NCBI GenBank assembly: GCA_029706075.1
Contig: JAINUG010000033.1
Location: forward strand, 1,612,001-1,676,000
Length of the DNA: 64,000 bases
Direction: 5' to 3'
DNA from: Aldrovandia affinis
Taxonomy: Eukaryota; Chordata; Actinopteri; Notacanthiformes; Halosauridae
Shown piece after piece: positions 1 through 63,813 of this stretch; positions within the stretch are counted from its first letter, which is position 1, and every line of letters begins with the position of its first letter. The position numbers and the translations under genes are program-made. The notes under the pieces are model-generated. The model was not told where the DNA came from. It was given only the letters and a program-made list of their open reading frames with translations, and ran no database searches.

Positions 1-2639
1 GCGTGCATGCATGTGTGTGCATATGTGCGTGAAGGTTATTTTGTGCTGGCAGGGTAGGAAGTATAGCAGTCAGGCTGTGCCCTGCTGAGGGCTCCACGGC
101 AGCCCAGAGAGGATGGGACCAAGGTCAGACTGATCACAATATAAGTCAGCCCAGTCTGGGGCCAGGTGACTCTATTTATCTCCCTACCACTCTCTTTCCC
201 TCTCTCTCTCTCATCCTCCCAAGGGCTGATGATGATTCAAACAAACAAACAGGGAGAGAGTGGATCCTGCAGTCATGATAATACACCTCTTTATTTTGGT
301 ACAGGAATAAACATGTATCCAATGTGTTGAGGGCCGAGCAAACCGTCTCCCTGAGGTGATTCAGAGAGGGTGGGGGTATGTCACATCTGTAAAGTGATAT
401 GACTGAGACGAGACTCGGCTCCTAACAAAGCCCTCTGACTCCCATCTGCCTCCTGGCTCTGACATGACAGCACAGTTGTGTGCGGCTAGTGCCGTGAGCC
501 AGGACCTGCCTACTCTCCATCTTCTAACCTGGACGCAGCTCCCAATGGAATGCCCGGTTATTCAGTCAGATGGCTGCTTCCTTCTCATGCAATGGAAAAA
601 GGGAATAAGATAAAGATTGGCTGTGGGAATCAGGTATCCCTGCTGTGCGACGCCACTACAGCAAGTGGCATTGGGCATTAAGTCCCATGGCCTTATGGGT
701 AGGAAATTTGCCCTCACCACAAAACAGCCGGTCGTGGAATTTTTGCCATGACCCAAATCACATGAGTCAGACTCTCAGAATCAGACTGATGAGGGTAATT
801 GGACCTGATCGGCAAAGAATCTGGGTCCACTGCTATTAGCATTCCCAGCCCCCATTAAAAAGAATAAACAGCGTCTCCACAGTTCAGGGATGAATTCATT
901 AGACCTGATGGCCTTAGTCAACTCATGATTTATGGTGCATTTTACAATAAACAGGCTTTAATACCATGCACATGTAATTACTCTCATTAAAGCTGTCTCT
1001 CTACCTGCTTTAAATACATTACCATACATATACATGTTAAATAGATGCAAATCACTGCACTGTATCTCCTTTTTTTTGGGCAAGGCCAATAACATATTTG
1101 TTTTGGTTCAAATATTTCAACAACCCCTTTGTTTCCCTTTTAGAATAAGCAACACATTTCCTCATCCAGGAGACAGGAGAAATGCCAGTCTGAGACCATA
1201 GGAAGCTTATGCATACAAGGCCCCAAGTTCCGTTGGGCATTTGTAGAAAGGATAGTTGTTTTTTATTTTCTTTATTTACCAAGCGATGCTTCTGCACAAG
1301 AACCTTAAAGAATATAAAACAAAATGTGAACTGGGCTGTCAGTGGAAGCGAGATGTAGTGGATCAAATTGAATGTGCGTCTATGACATTGAGGCCCGCAG
1401 ATGCAAAACACCACAGGCAGCAGAGCTTCCCCTCACACAACAGAGCTGTTCAACTATTCTGGACAGACATCTTACTTTGTAGTGAGTGGCGTAGTGTCAT
1501 CAAAACATTATTAATTTTGCAAGCTGCATCAGTTTCACCTCACCCACTGACAAAAAACTCAGTTCAGCTCCATAAGCCTCTGTTGCTACTGTCATGAAAT
1601 ATTGCAGTGTGAGTGTGTACCATGTACAGCGATCAACATCTATCTGCAGATCCACAGAATCTACATATGTTACTGAGTTCATATGAGAAGGATATCATAG
1701 GGTATGGGAAAATAATTAAAAAGGTAAAAACTATATTTTAAATATCTCTGGCATTCTGCCAGTCATGAACCACTTGTCATGAAAGCTGTAATTGTGACAA
1801 CACACTGATCTATCCTATGTTAAACAAGCACAACCTGGAGCAGCACATCACAGTCATCAAAACAGTCTTGGTCCAGAAGGTGTTCTTTAGTCTCAGCACA
1901 CACAGCTTTGCAGTAATCCCTTAACTGGTGCAGTTCATTTAGATGTAATCTGTGGAATAGCTATGCTAAGACAGTAAAAGTCATTGATTGCAAATCATGA
2001 ATAAACAATCCATAAAGTCTCACTAGTAAAGTTGCATCTGCAATAAATTATCCAATTAGGAAAGTTTTCCAAAGGTAAGCAAATAGAAAATGGCCTCGGA
2101 CTCTTAAACAGCAGTAATTCATTAATGCACACAATCAATTTCAGTTAATTTAACCATAAATCACAAGACGTATTAGGGGCATTGTACCAGGGTCTAGTCC
2201 CAAAATGAAGGGTCACAGACAACCACGATTTGTCTTCTTTGTACTGTACTCCCTACGTGTGTGTGTCTGTACGCAGTTAGACAGTCAGCCAAACTCCTTT
2301 CAGCAACAAGATGGGAGTCAGGATGTAGCGTCCAAGCTCCGGTGTTTAATAATGCCACACTTGCATGATATCAAAGAAACAATACAATTGGATGTATTGG
2401 GTTGGAGTAAACTGAGGAGGGTAAAAAGAAAGAAAGAAATACACACTGCATTCACATATGCTTGTGTTTCTTTTAGCTTCGAAATACACACTGTATTGCT
2501 AATTCACAAATAAAGATTACTTTAAAACACATATACTCGTGTTCCTTTTAGCTTAGAAATGCACACTGCATGGCTAATTCACAAATACATGCTACTGTAC
2601 CCACTCCAGGTAAGTATTAAAGTAAGCTAAGCAAAATAA
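1..2639. other. Non-coding stretch, no gene recognised
   Basis: I see no convincing gene here. ORFs are short (up to about 120 codons), overlap on both strands and resemble no family I know. A TG-rich run opens the window (about 1-30) and a CT-rich run lies near 188-215. The rest is AT-rich unique-looking DNA. The block near 890-1020, rich in TTTA and TAAT words, could be regulatory, but nothing in the sequence proves it. Confidence 0.6.
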
Positions 2640-3195
2640 GCAAAAGAGCATCTGTGAGGTCAGGCACTGATGTTGGACGAGAAGGCCTGGCTCGCAATCT
2701 ACGTTCTAATTCCTCCCAAAGGTGTTCAATGGGGTTGAGGTCAGGGCTCTGTGCAGGCCAATTGAGTTCCTCCACACCAAACTCGTCTAACCATGTCTTT
2801 ATGGACCTCGCTTTTGCCACAAACTGTTGCCACAAAGTTGGAAGCACCCAATTGGCTAAGATGTCTTCGTATCCTGTAGCATTAAGAATACCCTTCACTG
2901 GAACCAAGGGGCCTATCCAAAACCCTGAGAAACAGCCCCAGACCATTATCCCTCCTACACCAAACTTTACAGTAGGCACTATGCATTTTGGAAGGTAACG
3001 TTCTCCTGGCATCCGCCAAACCCAGATTTGTCCATCAGACTGCCAGATAGTGAAGCGTGATTCATCACTCCAAAGAACACGTTTCCGCTGCTCCAGAGTC
3101 CAGTTGTGCTTTACACCACTCCAGCCAACGCTTGGCATTGCGCATGGTGATGTGAGGCTTGTGTACAACTGCTCGGCCATGGAAACCCATTCCAT
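2617..3195 (-). pseudogene. Tc1 transposase catalytic domain lacking the second Asp
   Basis: The translation contains the first catalytic Asp (LWSDESRF), the [10 protein letters not shown] block and the third residue in [12 protein letters not shown]. In Tc1 enzymes a block with the second Asp (FQxDNAPxH type) lies between these. Here the chain passes directly from LPTLWQQF to [11 protein letters not shown], so that block is absent. A frameshift near the 5' end turns the expected His-Gly-Arg-Ala region into MEWVSMAEQ. The residues after DLTDALL are not transposase. The copy is dead. Confidence 0.85.
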
Positions 3196-3645
3196 GAAGC
3201 TCCTGACGCACAGTTCTTGTACTGATGGTGCTTTCAGAGGCAGTTTGGTACTCTGTAGTGAGTGATGCAGCAGATGATTTTACGCACTATGCGCTTCAGC
3301 ACTCATCGGCCCCACTCTGTGAGTTTGCGTGGTCTACCACTTCGTGGCCGAGCTGTTGTTGCTCCTAGGCACTTCCACTTCACAATAATAGGACTTATAG
3401 TTGACTGGGGCACATCTAGTAGGGCAGAAATTTCATGAACTGACTTGTGGCAAAGGTGGCATCCTATGACAGTGCTGCGTTTAAAGTCACTGAGCTCTTT
3501 ACGAACCATTTTGAATTCTAAATGTTTGTCTGTGGAGATTGCATGGCTATGTGCTGGATTTTATGCACCTGTTGGCAATGGGTGTGGCTGAAACACCTGA
3601 ACTCAATAATTAGTAGGGGTGTCCACTTACTTTTTTTTGTATGAA
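2640..3645 (-). mobile_element. Tc1-like DNA transposon, decayed copy
   Basis: This is a Tc1/mariner element in reverse orientation. Tc1 transposases are DDE enzymes that cut the element out and reinsert it at TA. The 5' part (3303-3509) begins MVRKELSDFKRS and holds the DNA-binding helix-turn-helix followed by the GRPRKLTE linker. The catalytic part follows at 2617-3195 in another frame. An end-like sequence (GGGGTGTCCACTTACTTTTT) lies near 3617-3636. The opposite inverted repeat is missing, so the element is truncated beyond about 2640. It cannot make an active enzyme. Confidence 0.9.
3303..3509 (-). pseudogene. Tc1 transposase N-terminal DNA-binding part
   Basis: This 68-codon ORF starts at the expected Met (MVRKELSDF). 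It shows a paired-like helix-turn-helix of the Tc1 type (SVHEISALLDVPQSTISPIIVKW) and then the basic GRPRKLTE linker. It is separated from the catalytic part by frameshifts in 3196-3302, so both belong to one broken gene in the element at 2640-3645. Confidence 0.85.
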
Positions 3646-14747: not shown

Positions 14748-14937
14748 GAATTGTGGCTACAGATTTACCTACAGGGTCCTAGTTTAACTATGTGGTTGCT
14801 CCTAGCACCCAGGAATTGTACTTCCCACTAGGGTGGCTTTCAGCTAAACTGTTCTTGACTACGGTTAACACTTTGTTGTACGTCGCTCTGGATAAGAGCA
14901 TCTGCCAAATGCCTATAATGTAATGTAATGTAATGAG
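14748..14937 (+). mobile_element. 5'-truncated L2-type LINE, 3' UTR only
   Basis: About 189 bases are identical, apart from one A/G difference in the stem-loop (AGCATCTG against AGCGTCTG), to the 3' end of the LINE at 38732-38928. The copy ends with the stem-loop CGCTCTGGATAAGAGC and (TGTAA)n. Extreme 5' truncation with a retained tail is the usual product of target-primed reverse transcription. It is far less diverged than the fragment at 12960-13432. Confidence 0.93.
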
Positions 14938-32859: not shown

Positions 32860-34199
32860 AGACACTCAGTGGCCACTTTATTAGGTACACCTTTCTAGTA
32901 CTAGGTAGGACCCCCTTTGCCCCCAGAACAGCCTGAATTATTTGTGGCATGGATTCAACAAGGTGCTGGAAACATTCCACAGAGATTCTGGTCCATGTTG
33001 ACATGATAGCGTCACGCAGTTGCTGCAGATTTGTCGGCTGCACATTCATGTTGCGAATCTCTCATTCCACCACATCCCAAAGCTGCTCTATTGGACTGAG
33101 ATCTGGTGACTGTGGAGGCCATTGGAGTACACTGAACTCATTGTCATGTTTGTGGAACCAGTTTGAGATGACGTGTGCTTTGTGACATGGCGCATTATCC
33201 TGCTGGAAGTAACCATTAGAAAATGGGTAGACTGTGGCCATAAAGGGATGCACATGGTCAGCAACAAGACTCAGGTAGGCTGTGGCATTTAAACAATGCT
33301 CAGTTGGTATTATTGTGGTTCTGTGTGGCTCAGTAGGTAGAGCATGGTGTTGGCAATGCTTAGGTTGTGGGTTCAATCCCCACTGGGACCACATATACTG
33401 AATTTTTTTTATACATTCACTACTGTAAGTTGCTTTGGATAAAAGCGTCTGCTAAATGGCATATATTATATTATATTATTAAGGGGCCTAATGTTTGCCA
33501 AGAAAACATTCCCCATGCCATTACACCACCAACACCAGCCTGAACCGTTGACACAAAGCAGGATGGATGCATGGATTCATGCCGTTTACGTCAAATTCTG
33601 ACCCTACCATCTGCATGTCGCAGCAGAAATTGAGATTCATCAAACCAGGTGACATTTTTCCAATCTAAAACTGTCCAGTTTTGATAAGACTGTGCCCACT
33701 GTAGCCTCACTTTCCTGTTCTTAGGTGACAGGAGTGGAACCCGGTGTGGTCTTCTGCTGCTGTAGCCCATCCACTTAAAGGTTTGACATGTTGTAACGCG
33801 TGGTTATTTAAGTTACTGCCTTCCTTTGACCAGTCTGGCCATTCTCCTCTGACCTCTCTCATTAACAAGGCGTTTTTGCCCACAGAACTGCCGCTCACTG
33901 GATGTTTTTTGTTTTTCGCACCATACTCTGTAAACTCTAGAGACTGTTGTGCGTGAAAATTCCATGAGATCAGCAGTTTCTGAGATACTCACACCACCCC
34001 ATCTGGCACCAACAATCATTCCACGGTTAAAGTCACTTGGATCACATTTCTTACCCATTCAGATTTTTGGTCTGAACAACAACTGAACCTCTTGACGATG
34101 TCTGAATGCATTTATGCATTGAGTTGCTGCCACATGATTGGCTGATTAGATAATTGCATGAATGTACAGGTGTACCTAATAAAGTGGTCACTGAGTGTA
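32860..34199 (-). mobile_element. Nearly full-length Tc1-like transposon, split by a SINE
   Basis: Both ends are present: GACACTCAGTGGCCACTTTA (32861) and its inverse TAAAGTGGTCACTGAGTGTA (34180-34199), lying in TA-rich DNA. On the minus strand the transposase pieces are MGKKCDPSDFNRGMIVGARW with its helix-turn-helix (33813-34058), a WFDESQFLLRHADG block with the first Asp (about 33600-33645), GYFQQDNAPCHKAHVIS with the second Asp, SPDLSPIEQLWDVVE with the Glu (33062-33240), and the C-terminal LQQLRDAI (32807-33049). All three catalytic residues survive, but frameshifts and the SINE at 33311-33480 inactivate the gene. The same family occurs at 62940-63813. Confidence 0.93.
33311..33480 (+). 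mobile_element. SINE with a tRNA-Ala-like head, inserted in the Tc1
   Basis: Bases 33316-33391 fold as a tRNA: acceptor TGGTTCT with GGGACCA, D-arm GCTC with GAGC, a weak anticodon stem with loop TTGGCAA (anticodon GGC, Ala), and a perfect T-arm GTGGG-TTCAATC-CCCAC. A short body follows, then a tail with the LINE-type stem GCTTTGGATAAAAGCGTCTG and (TATAT)n. Removing it restores the Tc1 sequence (GGTATTA then AGGGGCC). The body is unusually short. Confidence 0.88.
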
Positions 34200-37083: not shown

Positions 37084-38618
37084 TATTTCCCACCTCCTCC
37101 TCTCCCACCGCCCTACCACTTGTGCCCTCGACCCTATCCCTTCATCCCTCCTCCAGGCGATCACACCTGACATCCTCCCGTTTGTCACCTCCCTTGTGAA
37201 CTCCTCCCTGTCCTCTGGTTGTTCCCCTCGCCCTTCAAAAGGGCCCATATCACCCCTCTGCTGAAAAAACCCACTCTAGACCCCTCAGTTATCCAGAATT
37301 ATCGCCCAGTATCCCTCCTCCCCTTCCTGTCTAAAACCCTCGAAAGAGCGGTATCTCACCAACTCTCTGCTTTCCTTACAGAAAATAACCTGCTGGACCC
37401 CTACCAGTCCGGCTTCAGACCTGGCCACTCAACAGAAACCGCTCTCCTCTCGGTCAATGAAGCTCTTCACACCGCACGAGCCGCCTCCCTCTCCTCCATC
37501 CTGATCCTGCTTGATCTCTCAGCTGCCTTCGACACTGTGGAGCACTCCATCCTCCTGTCCTCCCTGGCAGCAACCGGGATCTGCGGTACAGCCCTCGCCT
37601 GGATCGAGTCCTACCTCTCCGGTCGCTCCTTCCAGGTTGCCTGGGCTGGTAAAGTATCACCGCCTTGCTCCCTCCCCACCGGGGTTCCACAGGGCTCAGT
37701 CCTCGGTCCCCTTCTCTTCTCCCTGTACACCCGCTCCCTTGGCTCTGTAATCTCTGCCCACGGCTTATTTTACCATTGTTATGCTGATGACACTCAACTC
37801 TTTCTCTCCTTCTCCCCATCAGACACTCAGGTCTCTACCCGCATCGCTGCTTGCCTGGGGGACATTCAGAGCTGGATGGACAGTCACCACCTAAAGCTCA
37901 ACCCAGGTAAAACAGAGCTAATCTTCATTCCTGCCCTAAACTCTCCCCACCTTGATTTCTCCATTTCTCTAGGTGACACCCTGGTGACATCATCACCCTG
38001 CGCGAAGAATCTCGGTGTGGTGATGGACAACAGGCTGTCCCTATCAATGAACATTGCAGCGGTAAGCCGGGCGTGCAGATTCTTCCTGTATAACATCAGG
38101 AGGATCCGTCCCTTCCTTACCACGTACTCTACCCAGCTCCTGGTCCAAGCAATGGTACTGTCCCGCTTGGACTACTGCAACTCGCTCCTGGCTGGCCTTC
38201 CCGCATCTGCCATCAGACCCTGCAACTCATCCAGAACGCTGCGGCCCGTCTGATCTACAACCTTCCTCGACACTCCCACGTCACCCCCCTGCTCACTACC
38301 CTCCACTGGCTGCCTGTTATAGCTCGCATCAAATTCAAGACATTGGTCCTAGCATACCAGGCAGTCAAGGGACCAGCCCCAACATACCTCACCAAGATCT
38401 TCAAACCCTACACACCTGCCAGACCTCTCCGTTCTGCTACCTCAGGACGCCTAGCACCTCCCCCCCTCCGCACCTGCGCTTCCCGGTCACGTCTCCTGTC
38501 GGTTCTGGCTCCACGATGGTGGAATGACCTTCCGGTGGAAGTCAGAACAGCTGAGACCCTGGCCACCTTCAAGCGTCGACTGAAGACTCACCTCTTCAGG
38601 GTGCACCTCTCCCCGTAG
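37084..38618 (+). pseudogene. LINE reverse transcriptase, few frameshifts
   Basis: The chain can be read as DISHLLLSHRPTTCALDPIP (frame 2), FKRAHITPLLKKP (frame 1 from 37219), SVIQNYRPVSLLPFLSKTLE, YQSGFRPGHSTETALL, ILLDLSAAFDTVEH (first catalytic Asp), GVPQGSVLGPLLFSLYT, YADDTQLFLS (37780-37809, the catalytic Asp pair), LKLNPGKTEL, KNLGVVMDNRLS and LSRLDYCNSLLAGL. A shift near 38210 moves it to frame 3, ending with PRWWNDLPVEVRTAETL to the stop at 38616-38618. All core polymerase motifs survive, so the gene was lost recently. Confidence 0.93.
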
Positions 38619-39059
38619 TCCGGTTTTTGTTAATTTAGGGACATAGTCACTTAGTTTACACGTCTACTTGTTTATGTATTGTATTAGGCTTAGGCATTAT
38701 TTCCTGCATTGAGTGCTTTACTGCTACCTCTGAATTGTGGCTACAGATTTACCTACAGGGTCCTAGTTTAACTATGTGGTTGCTCCTAGCACCCAGGAAT
38801 TGTACTTCCCACTAGGGTGGCTTTCAGCTAAACTGTTCTTGACTACGGTTAACACTTTGTTGTACGTCGCTCTGGATAAGAGCGTCTGCCAAATGCCTAT
38901 AATGTAATGTAATGTAATGTAATGTACTGTGGTTCACAAATAACAACTGTTGCATGATTTCTATGTCATTTATAATTTAGTTTAAAAAAGAAGAAAAAAC
39001 TGCATTGCTTTATGACAGCTGATTTAGCACAGGCAATGTGAAAATGTGTAAAAAATTAA

Positions 39060-49329: not shown

Positions 49330-50866
49330 ACAATGGCTTCGGAAAGTATTCAGGCCCCTTCACTTTTCCCACACTTTGTTGTATTATATAATTAATTTAA
49401 ATTGATTAAATCGATTTTTTTGCCATCAATCTACAAATAATACCCCATAATGACAAAGTGTAACTGAGTTGGTTCTGCCTGCAACGACTTTCGAAACGAG
49501 GACGCCAACAAGAGACACGATTAGTCCACTGAGCTAAAGACCCAAGTCCCCAGCCAAGGGAACTAATCATACTCTTATCGACATCACTTTCTGTAGCGGA
49601 CGATCATGTGCTTAACTTACATCTTCTGAGCTCCGCTACACTCTCCCCCTCAAAACTCCTGCAGCAGCAACCACAGCCCAACTGATAGACATCTGAGTCA
49701 TGGCACCAATGTAATGGGGTTGGTTCTGCCTGCAGCGAGTTTCGAACCGAGGATCCCAACGCCACAAGAGACGATTACCTCACTGAGCTAAAGACTCAAG
49801 TCCCTAGCCAAGGGATCCAATCATACTCTTGCCGCTTATTCTGTAGCACACCCTTACCTGCTTAACACACGTATCGGAGCTCCACTGCTACAAAAGCAAA
49901 AACACGTTTTTAGAAATTGTTGAGATCCTTTGAGATCCTTGAGAACCTGGGATCCTTGAGAACCTGGCAGAAGGAAAAACATCTCTGCACCACTCCATCA
50001 ATCAGGCATTTATGGTAGCACTTGGCATTCAGGCCAAAGAGTTCAATTTTTATATCATCAGACCAGAGAATCTTTTCCCTCATGCTTTAAGTGCCATTTG
50101 GCAAACTCCAGGCAGGCTGTCATATGCATTTTACTCAGGAGTGGCTTCTGTCTAGCCACTACCATAAAGGTCTGACTGATGGAGTGCTACAGAGATGGTT
50201 GTCCTTCTGCCAGGTTCTCCCATTGCTGCAGAGGAACTCTGAAGCTCTCTCAGAGTGGCCATTGGGTTCTTAGCCACCTCCCTAACCAAGGCCCTTCCTG
50301 CCCGGTTACTGAGTTTGGCCAGATGGCCAGCTCTAAGAAGAGTTGTGGTTGTTCCGACCTTTTTCCATTTCGCAATGATGGAGCCCACTTTGCTCCTGGG
50401 AACTTCCAATGCTTTCATACCCTTCCCCAGGTCTATGCCTCAACACAATTCTATCTCAGAGGTCTATGGAGAGTTTATTGGACTTCATGGATAGGTTTTT
50501 GCTCTGACATGCACTGTAAACTGTGGGACCTTATATAGACAGGTGTGTGCCTATCTAAATCATGTCCAATCAATTGAATTTGCCACAGGTGCACTACAAT
50601 CAAGTTCTAGAGACATCTCAAGGATGATCAAAGGGAACAGGATGCATCTGAGCTCAATTTGGAGTGTCATAGCAAAGGGCCTGAATACTTATGTAAATTA
50701 CATTTCAGTTTTTAATTTTTAATACATTTGCAACAATTTCTAAAAACGTGTTTTCATGTGTGGATTGATGGCAAAAATTCTATTGAATCCATTTTAAATT
50801 AAGTCTATAACACAACAAAGTGCGTAAAAAGTTAAGGGGCCTGAATACTTTCCGAACACACTGTAT
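49330..50866 (-). mobile_element. Tc1-like transposon carrying a miniature LTR element
   Basis: The ends match in inverse orientation: left CTTCGGAAAGTATTCAGGCC (49337), right GGCCTGAATACTTTCCGAAC (50838-50857). The transposase is on the minus strand: SKVGSIIAKWKK helix-turn-helix (50152-50418), RAGHLAKLSNRAGRALVREV linker and NPMATLRELQ. The catalytic domain is largely gone; between about 49900 and 50150 only pieces around the expected HQSDLYG and following sequence remain. A 434-bp element occupies 49459-49892. The copy is inactive. Confidence 0.9.
49459..49892 (-). mobile_element. TRIM: miniature LTR retrotransposon with tRNA-like boxes in its LTRs
   Basis: Two direct repeats of 182-183 bp (49459-49640 and 49710-49892), each of TG...CA form on the minus strand (TGTAGC...TTACA), flank only 69 bp. 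Reading the minus strand, the internal part starts TTGGTGCCATGACTC, a typical primer-binding site form (TGG start), and ends AGTTTTGAGGGGGAG, a polypurine tract. The flanks AAAG (49455-49458, 49893-49896) are a 4-bp target duplication, and removing the element restores the Tc1 sequence. Each LTR has TAGCTCAGTGAGG and, about 42 bases later, GGTTCGAAACTC (clearest in the copy at 49710-49892), spaced like tRNA A and B boxes. It encodes no protein, so it would depend on another retrotransposon. Confidence 0.85.
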
Positions 50867-51311
50867 AGAATTTATTAAAACAAAGAGTGGAAACTGTAAC
50901 AATGAATGAAGTGGAAATATAGACACTACTGTAATTATAATGGACATAACAAAGATACAGATATACACAATGGATGGTATCCACAAGCACAGGTTCCTAA
51001 ATTTAATGAGGGATTATGTACAGTACAGTGTTGGACCCACATCATCTGAGCTGCTGTTCTTACTTGCCTGCACCGGTGCAATTCCTAGGTCATGAGGTTA
51101 TTAGCCTCACTTGTCACAACCTGTCCAGGCTAACACTCTGATGCAAAATAAGTCTGTTCAGTGTCCAGGTATGTGCTCTGCTAATAAACTAAATGTCAAT
51201 TACTTATTCTGATTAATCATGATCGTGTGCAGATAAGGCTCCAATAGAAGGTTATGATGATTCAAATTTTGCAGCTAACCTAAAGGTTCAGTATTATATA
51301 TATATACTATA

Positions 51312-62939: not shown

Positions 62940-63813
62940 TGACTTTAACCGTGGAATGATTTTTGGTGCCAGACAGGGTGGTGTGAGTATCTCAGAAACT
63001 GCTGATCTCATGGGAAAAGAGAAAAACATCCAGTGAGCAGCAGTTCTGTGGGCGAAAAAACGCCTTGTTAATGAGAGAGGTCAAAGGAGACTGGCCAGAC
63101 TGGTTCAAGCTGACAGGAAGGCGACAGTAACTCAAATAAGCATGCGTTACAACAATGGTATGTAGAAGAGCATCTCTGAATGCACAACACGTCAAACCTT
63201 GAAGTGGATGGGTTACAGTAGCAGAAGACCACGCCGGGTTCCACTCCTGTCAGCTAAGAACAGGAAAGTGAGGCTACAGTGGGCACAGGCTCACCAAAAC
63301 TTGACAGTTGAAGATTGGAAAAATGTCGCCTGGACTGACGAATCTCGATTTCTGCTGCGACATGCAGATGGTAGGGTCATAATTGGGTGTAAACAACATG
63401 AATCCATGCATCCATCCTGCCTTTTGTCAATGGTACAGGCTGGTGGTGGTGGTGTAATGGTGTGGGAAATGTTTTCTTGGCACACATTAGGCCCCTTAAT
63501 ACCAATTGAGAGACTTGTTGTTGACCATGTGCATCCCTTTATGGCCACAGTCTACCCATCTTCTAATGGCTACTTCCAGCAGGATAATGCGCCATGTCAC
63601 AAAGTACACATCATCTCAAGCTGGTTCCACAAACATGTAGTAGAACGGGAGATTCGCAACATGAATGTGCAACTGACAAATCTTCAGCAACTGTGTGATG
63701 CTATTGTGTGCACAATGTTTCCAGCACCTTGTTGAATCCATGCCACAAATAATTCAGGCTGTTCTGGGGGCAGTACTAGAAAGGTGTACCTAATAAAGTG
63801 GCCACTGAGTGTA
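62940..63813 (+). mobile_element. Tc1-like transposon, same family as 32860-34199
   Basis: N-terminal sequence DFNRGMIFGARQGGVSISET starts at about 62943, without its 5' inverted repeat. A stop and a small deletion follow (GKEKNIQ then stop), and RLVNERGQRRLARLVQADRK continues. The 3' inverted repeat AAAGTGGCCACTGAGTGTA (63795-63813) is intact and abuts another repeat. The long ORF 63199-63735 holds the catalytic domain with a deletion. Confidence 0.92.
63199..63735 (+). pseudogene. Tc1 transposase catalytic domain lacking the Glu block
   Basis: The 178-codon frame is open and contains VAWTDESRFLLRHADGR (first Asp), the GGGGVMVWEMFSWHTLGP block and GYFQQDNAPCHKVH (second Asp). It then jumps from WFHKH to VVEREIRNMNVQ. 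The sister copy at 32860-34199 has 24 more codons here, containing SPDLSPIEQLW with the catalytic Glu. The missing 72 nt keep the frame, so a stable but inactive protein could in principle be made. Met at 63199 is internal, not the family start. Confidence 0.9.

Follow-up and report, generated by a model that had tools for sequence, protein, structure and literature searches.

Helenus, a TRIMp3 group of TRIMs with tRNA-like LTRs, was named by Kojima in 2024 (PMC10886601) and is also mentioned in a 2026 meeting report (PMC12859917); in the literature searched for TRIMp3, Helenus and LTR-11_DR, these are the only relevant papers. The vertebrate hosts listed in the 2024 account are the coelacanth, the sterlet, the paddlefish, eight Cypriniformes, a catfish and the milkfish, and the vertebrate families include LTR-11_DR of zebrafish and its relatives, LTR1_LCh and LTR2_LCh of the coelacanth, and families from sturgeon and paddlefish, with tandem arrays reported for LTR-11_DR (PMC10886601). 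In animals, Helenus elements are described there as having 4-bp target site duplications (TSDs) and as being mobilized by Gypsy elements, and the vertebrate members as using tRNA-His, tRNA-Leu or tRNA-Lys as primers (PMC10886601). The same paper presents plant Cassandra as the sole validated TRIMp3 lineage, a TRIM with the Pol III promoter of a small RNA gene in its LTRs, and Ajax of nemerteans as a TRIM of 421-434 bp with a 5S-derived LTR, a 5-bp TSD and a tRNA-Leu primer (PMC10886601).

The element analyzed here lies in a 64,000-nucleotide stretch of the Aldrovandia affinis genome, referred to below as the window. Positions 49459-49892 very probably represent a dead copy of a multicopy, non-autonomous TRIM of the Helenus/TRIMp3 kind, with the life cycle proposed below. 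The TRIM insertion itself is confirmed as it was described in the original prediction: the coordinates, the 434-bp length, the LTRs of 183 and 182 bp with their TG...CA ends and the 69-bp internal part all agree with the sequence, and the primer-binding site (PBS), polypurine tract (PPT) and AAAG duplication that had been claimed are all present (Table 1). The strand, absent from that prediction, is the minus strand.

Table 1. Features of the TRIM insertion, in window coordinates
Feature	Position	Strand	Sequence and remarks
Whole TRIM insertion, 434 bp	49459..49892	-	Within a Tc1-like DNA transposon; based on the sequence, the uninterrupted copy L085 and related copies
5' LTR, 183 bp	49710..49892	-	TGTAG...TTACA; positions 1-97 subfamily-B-like, 169-183 mostly A-like
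3' LTR, 182 bp	49459..49640	-	Subfamily A
Internal region, 69 bp	49641..49709	-	No ORF
PBS	49691..49708	-	TGGTGCCATGACTCAGAT; 16/18 to the complement of the tRNA-His 3' end
PPT	49641..49651	-	GAGGGGGAGAG; directly adjoins the 3' LTR
TSD, left	49455..49458		AAAG, letters as on the plus strand
TSD, right	49893..49896		AAAG, letters as on the plus strand
A-box-like motif, 5' LTR	49779..49790	-	TAGCTCAGTGAG; 8/9 consensus positions
B-box-like motif, 5' LTR	49738..49748	-	GGTTCGAAACT; 8/10; starts 42 nt after the A-box start
A-box-like motif, 3' LTR	49525..49536	-	TAGCTCAGTGGA; 8/9
Decayed B-box position, 3' LTR	49487..49497	-	GTTTCGAAAGT; 6/10 to consensus

The copy has all the features by which a TRIM is recognized, namely paired TG...CA LTRs, a length below 1 kb, a lack of coding sequence, a PBS beside the 5' LTR and a PPT beside the 3' LTR. 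A single spacer base (T, on the minus strand) separates the 5' LTR from the PBS, and both mismatches of the PBS to tRNA-His are CpG-to-CpA changes, which are the decay products expected of CpG. Relative to family members with an 81-bp internal region, the window copy is missing 12 bp that lie next to the PBS, flanked by two GAT repeats; the same 12 bp are absent from locus L016, the internal part of which is 97% identical to that of the window copy over all 69 bases.

The Tc1-like host element extends from 49335 to 50879. At another locus in the same genome (L085), the surrounding Tc1-like stretch is uninterrupted (...CCCATAATGACAAAGCAAAAAC..., 88% identity over 82 bases) and contains a single AAAG, which fits a 434-bp insertion accompanied by a 4-bp duplication. 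The second Tc1-like terminal repeat in the window lacks about 22 bases, the insertion point among them, and thus provides no clean empty-site control, which L085 does. The Tc1-like empty-site pattern has 0 matches in viral_contigs and 0 in genome_contigs. Elsewhere in the window, ORFs at 2617-3279 and 63166-63735 resemble Tc1-like transposases by eye.

The assembly to which the window belongs comprises 1.22 Gb in 2576 contigs, and a search of it with the whole element produces at least 44 scored matches, a floor rather than a count, with the best 40 of 3653 first-look candidates scored. Apart from the window itself, 39 scored places were examined; they are the best whole-element matches, and their completeness is thus partly selected. 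All 39 preserve the order LTR-internal-LTR, some with a truncated LTR, and blastn detects one internal part flanked by exactly two stretches of LTR in 36 of them and more than two LTR stretches in the other 3. The internal part is most often 81 bp (21/39), with extremes of 62 and 96. Both outer ends are kept in 21 copies; a 4-bp TSD is exact in 12 of these, matches at three of four positions in 4 and at one or two in 5. Cross-copy pairing of flanks gives a four-of-four match by chance in 0.24% of cases, and none of the 21 copies has a full duplication match at 3, 5 or 6 bp. Two unusual arrangements, LTR-LTR-internal-LTR at L043 and an extra LTR piece behind the 3' LTR at L045, look like array remnants. 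On contig C1797, the copies L072 and L073 closely resemble each other and are separated by 1.3 kb, perhaps as the result of a local duplication.

Searches with parts of the element complete this picture. When the LTR alone is the query (best 40 of 2179 candidates scored; 29 loci examined, the window's own omitted), 26 of the 29 loci lack another LTR within 800 bp and 9 of these are bounded by an exact 4-bp TSD, although end-finding at these loci is crude and the LTR end was missed or set too early in five of the 26. One of the 29, L087, sits behind a PPT, which makes it a 3' LTR rather than a single LTR, and another, L105, is a chimera. Beyond this genome, exact LTR patterns have 0 matches in viral_contigs and 0 in genome_contigs. 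The internal part as query (best 40 of 277 candidates scored) led to 30 loci, 16 of which coincide with the window or with one of the 39 copies; at least two LTRs lie close by in 29 of the 30, and at L061 there is no LTR behind the PPT in the flank examined. These internal-query loci bear on the idea that the family arose by deletion from one autonomous Gypsy element in the same genome, with LTRs in common. Such an origin would suit the combination of a tRNA-His PBS and a 4-bp TSD, which is typical of LTR elements, but no longer element appears among the 30 loci, and the idea seems unlikely.

The PBS of the family is of the tRNA-His type. The comparison uses the 3' end of human tRNA-His (ARAGORN types the sequence used as tRNA-His) and the Lys, Leu, Pro and Trp primer sites. 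Among the 39 relatives, the match to the tRNA-His site is complete (18/18) in 7, 17 in 14, 16 in 8, 15 in 4, 14 in 2, 12 in 3 and 9 in 1, some of the low scores arising from LTR ends misplaced by the script, so that 29 of the 39 match at 16 or more of 18 positions. The mean match is 16.0 for tRNA-His vs 8.8-10.3 for the Lys, Leu, Pro and Trp sites, making tRNA-His the best of the five 3' ends compared. The 21-mer TTGGTGCCGTGACTCGGATCA, which covers the PBS, occurs 94 times in the genome and its reversed control 0 times. The sequence TGGTGCCGTGACTCGG appears also in the HERV literature and in the human-tRNA literature. The 11-mer PPT is exact in 23 of the 39 relatives and matches at 10 or more of 11 positions in 36.

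Relatives with paired LTRs, PBS, PPT and 4-bp TSDs, together with single LTRs, are what the original prediction had proposed to look for, and they were found. The outcome that it named as fatal to the TRIM reading, single or head-to-tail SINE units without PBS or PPT, does not occur among the loci examined, L105 being the exception. A tRNA-derived SINE arranged as a head-to-tail dimer and misread as an LTR element would account for tRNA-like boxes, and L105, in which an LTR is joined through its B box to an L2/UnaL2-type tail, could be cited in its favor. Yet that junction occurs at only 1 locus among all those examined, whereas PBS, PPT and an LTR pair recur in 39 copies, many TSDs are exact at 4 bp, and single LTRs also have 4-bp TSDs; the SINE dimer is rejected on these grounds and appears scarcely credible. 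More generally, a LINE-type tail, long variable TSDs and a lack of PBS and PPT, which would mark a SINE, are not found in the loci examined, with L105 as the single exception. SINE2 elements with an L2/UnaL2 tail share the A and B boxes with the window element, but the latter has LTRs, a PBS, a PPT and an integrase-type 4-bp TSD and has no such tail. The element is thus a TRIM and not a SINE, by virtue of its PBS, PPT, 4-bp TSDs and single LTRs.

The window does contain a SINE with such a tail. At 33326-33465, a tRNA-headed SINE ends in a UnaL2-type tail (Rfam tRNA 35.4 bits, UnaL2 70.9 bits), and the similarity of the TRIM LTRs to it is not above that of shuffles. Two more UnaL2 3' elements, at 14865-14918 and 38849-38902, are each preceded by a nearly identical stretch and so probably belong to one repeat family. 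An ORF at 37171-38253 resembles, by eye, an L2-type LINE reverse transcriptase.

In L105, at about 1494-1700 of the reverse complement, the beginning of a Helenus LTR, up to and including the B box, runs directly into an L2/UnaL2 3' tail. The tail bears pentamer repeats, and a duplication of ATGTAG is possible. It may be, though it is improbable, that the border between TRIMs and SINEs is crossed in both directions, with L105 a retroposed unit for which LINE machinery took up a Helenus transcript and made a SINE precursor of it. If true, this route would reverse the published idea that TRIMp3 elements arise when a SINE lands in an LTR.

The boxes themselves had been claimed for each LTR at tRNA spacing, and this stands for the pair in the 5' LTR; in the 3' LTR the B box is decayed. 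The family shares the boxes. In the window 5' LTR, the two boxes together score 16/19, a value that 0.85% of dinucleotide shuffles attain. For the window 3' LTR, the top score is 14, which 21.6% of shuffles attain, and the pair behind it bypasses the decayed B-box site, which lies below the scan threshold, showing that the scan may pair non-homologous motifs. Across 59 LTRs, an A-like and B-like pair scoring at least 15/19 is found in 47 in the sense direction and in 1 in the antisense direction, vs 5.3% of shuffles, and 5 LTRs score 0. Since the LTRs share one ancestor, the shuffle test is worth roughly one observation, the 0.85% of the window 5' LTR.

Conservation of the boxes among copies, named in the original prediction as a test, does not bear out a special status: the boxes do not surpass the remainder of the LTR in conservation. 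For the A box, 172 of 177 11-column stretches of the LTR are at least as conserved, and for the B box, which is moderately conserved, 39 of 177 are. The mean majority frequency over the 59 LTRs is 0.945 at non-CpG columns vs 0.783 at CpG columns, and at non-CpG columns it is 0.90 for the A box, below average, and 0.96 for the B box, slightly above. This pattern is what neutral decay of dead copies gives and passes no verdict on function in an active ancestor; it lends no support to the boxes as a selected module. The Rfam tRNA model, which does detect the tRNA head of the unrelated SINE in the window, has no match in the window LTRs, nor in those of 13 other loci, made up of 8 full copies, 4 single LTRs and L105, the sole match among these loci lying outside the element in the flank of L019. 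"tRNA-type boxes" is thus a statement at the level of motifs, given boxes that are not specially conserved and LTRs without an Rfam tRNA match.

Several other readings of the LTR sequence were discarded. A functional tRNA is set aside, as ARAGORN finds none in the window and the Rfam tRNA model does not reach the LTRs. Two sub-threshold matches within the element, to a CRISPR repeat and a microRNA family, are taken as chance. T-runs after the A box are scarcer than in shuffles (0.21 vs 0.95 per copy, 19 copies), but a single copy would be free of them with a probability of 0.38, and the depletion is too weak to count as Pol III evidence.

An RNA polymerase III promoter in the LTRs is a plausible prediction. 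The competing reading is an ordinary TRIM transcribed by Pol II, in which the A- and B-box-like motifs are chance or fossil and have no role; it draws on the unexceptional conservation, the silence of the Rfam tRNA model and the shuffle frequencies of the two window LTRs. The excess of sense over antisense pairs speaks against it, tempered by the common ancestry of the LTRs, as does the identity of the motifs TRGCY and GGTTC with those given for Helenus (PMC10886601). Pol II transcription is a serious possibility, if somewhat the less favored of the two.

The LTR pair is a mosaic. The two window LTRs are 76% identical (blastn, E about 5e-31), and their K2P distance is 0.235-0.261, varying with the alignment. 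The LTRs of the family fall into a subfamily A and a subfamily B, which differ in the LTR end (GCAGAGGCAGACCTACCCACTGTCGTTACA in B) and in the first 60 bases. Among the LTR-query loci, L105 left out, 22 of 28 belong to B and 6 of 28 to an intermediate group; most of the 22, all within L079-L103, are single LTRs, and 4-bp TSDs are present at several of the 22. When the two window LTRs are placed in a tree with 53 LTRs of subfamily A and 28 others, the 3' LTR groups inside A and the 5' LTR beside B. Diagnosis at 34 columns, several of which are gap columns and hence not independent, gives 31 A and 1 B states for the 3' LTR and 11 A and 21 B states for the 5' LTR. The split in the latter follows position: at positions 1-97 (21 columns), 19 states are B and 0 are A, and at positions 169-183 (13 columns), 11 are A and 2 are B. 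Its mean distance is 0.147 to the intermediate group, 0.171 to B and 0.202 to A. Correspondingly, the window LTRs differ from one another by 11.9% at positions 63-168 vs 33.9% at 1-62. All 17 of the other LTR pairs complete enough for this comparison are A/A. A mixed 5' LTR (24 A, 7 B) also occurs in L034, where the 3' LTR is incomplete, so the window copy is not alone in having a hybrid LTR.

Normal retrotransposition leaves two identical LTRs. With LTRs identical at insertion and an intact TSD, the simplest reading is an exchange after insertion, and the subfamily states suggest that one window LTR was probably altered by gene conversion from another subfamily. Because the LTRs belong partly to different subfamilies, their divergence overstates the age of the insertion. 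The earlier remark that the LTRs differ visibly thus holds, but the old age drawn from it is partly an artifact of the mixture of A and B.

Set against the described systems, the element resembles Helenus most closely. Shared with it are a short non-coding LTR element with TRGCY and GGTTC in the LTR, a tRNA-His PBS, a PPT and a 4-bp TSD (AAAG in the window, exact in 12 of the 21 copies with both ends), as well as single LTRs, array-like copies and a length within 311-1263 bp (PMC10886601). The Helenus box pattern (TRGCY and YGG for the A box, GGTTC for the B box) is present in the two window LTRs jointly and in neither alone: the 5' LTR has TAGCT and GGTTC but GTGAG instead of GTGG in its A box, and the 3' LTR has TAGCTCAGTGG but a B box decayed to GTTTC. 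A difference is that these LTRs have no match to the Rfam tRNA model; the likeness is judged by published features. Cassandra is comparable as a TRIM whose LTRs hold the Pol III promoter of a small-RNA gene, but Cassandra LTRs are derived from 5S rRNA; the window element has no 5S match, and a Cassandra-like 5S element is rejected for that reason. Ajax is likewise a TRIM of similar length with a small-RNA-derived LTR, but differs in its 5S derivation, TSD length and primer (PMC10886601).

A vertebrate TRIM with tRNA-type boxes had been called unusual, with Cassandra as the nearest parallel known; Helenus, already described from vertebrates, provides a parallel (PMC10886601). Since the testable Helenus features are found here, save tRNA derivation beyond the boxes, the kind of element is already known, and by those published features the window copy is a further example of the TRIMp3 class described in 2024.

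A life cycle can be proposed for such an element. Transcription by RNA polymerase III, directed by the A and B boxes, would begin within the 5' LTR a short distance upstream of the A box, at about LTR position 90-100, and the RNA would extend across the internal part of 69-81 bp and into the 3' LTR. Transfer RNA-His would then prime the minus strand, with reverse transcriptase supplied by an autonomous, probably Gypsy-type element; first-strand transfer would proceed via the LTR stretch common to both RNA ends, and the PPT would prime the plus strand. The helper integrase would insert the DNA with a 4-bp duplication. After insertion, gene conversion from another LTR subfamily probably replaced the U3 portion of one LTR, and point mutation, most pronounced at CpG, would account for the remaining decay.

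In this one large genome, the TRIMp3 class is represented both by paired copies and by single LTRs, and its LTRs form two subfamilies or more. Two cautions follow for the annotation of such families: exchange between subfamilies can inflate LTR-LTR divergence, and scans for tRNA boxes alone could class such LTRs as SINEs. Most deserving of specialist attention are the mosaic LTR pair and L105, the chimera of an LTR and an L2 tail. As a multicopy family with intact 18/18 primer sites, the element is good material for the question of Pol III transcription.
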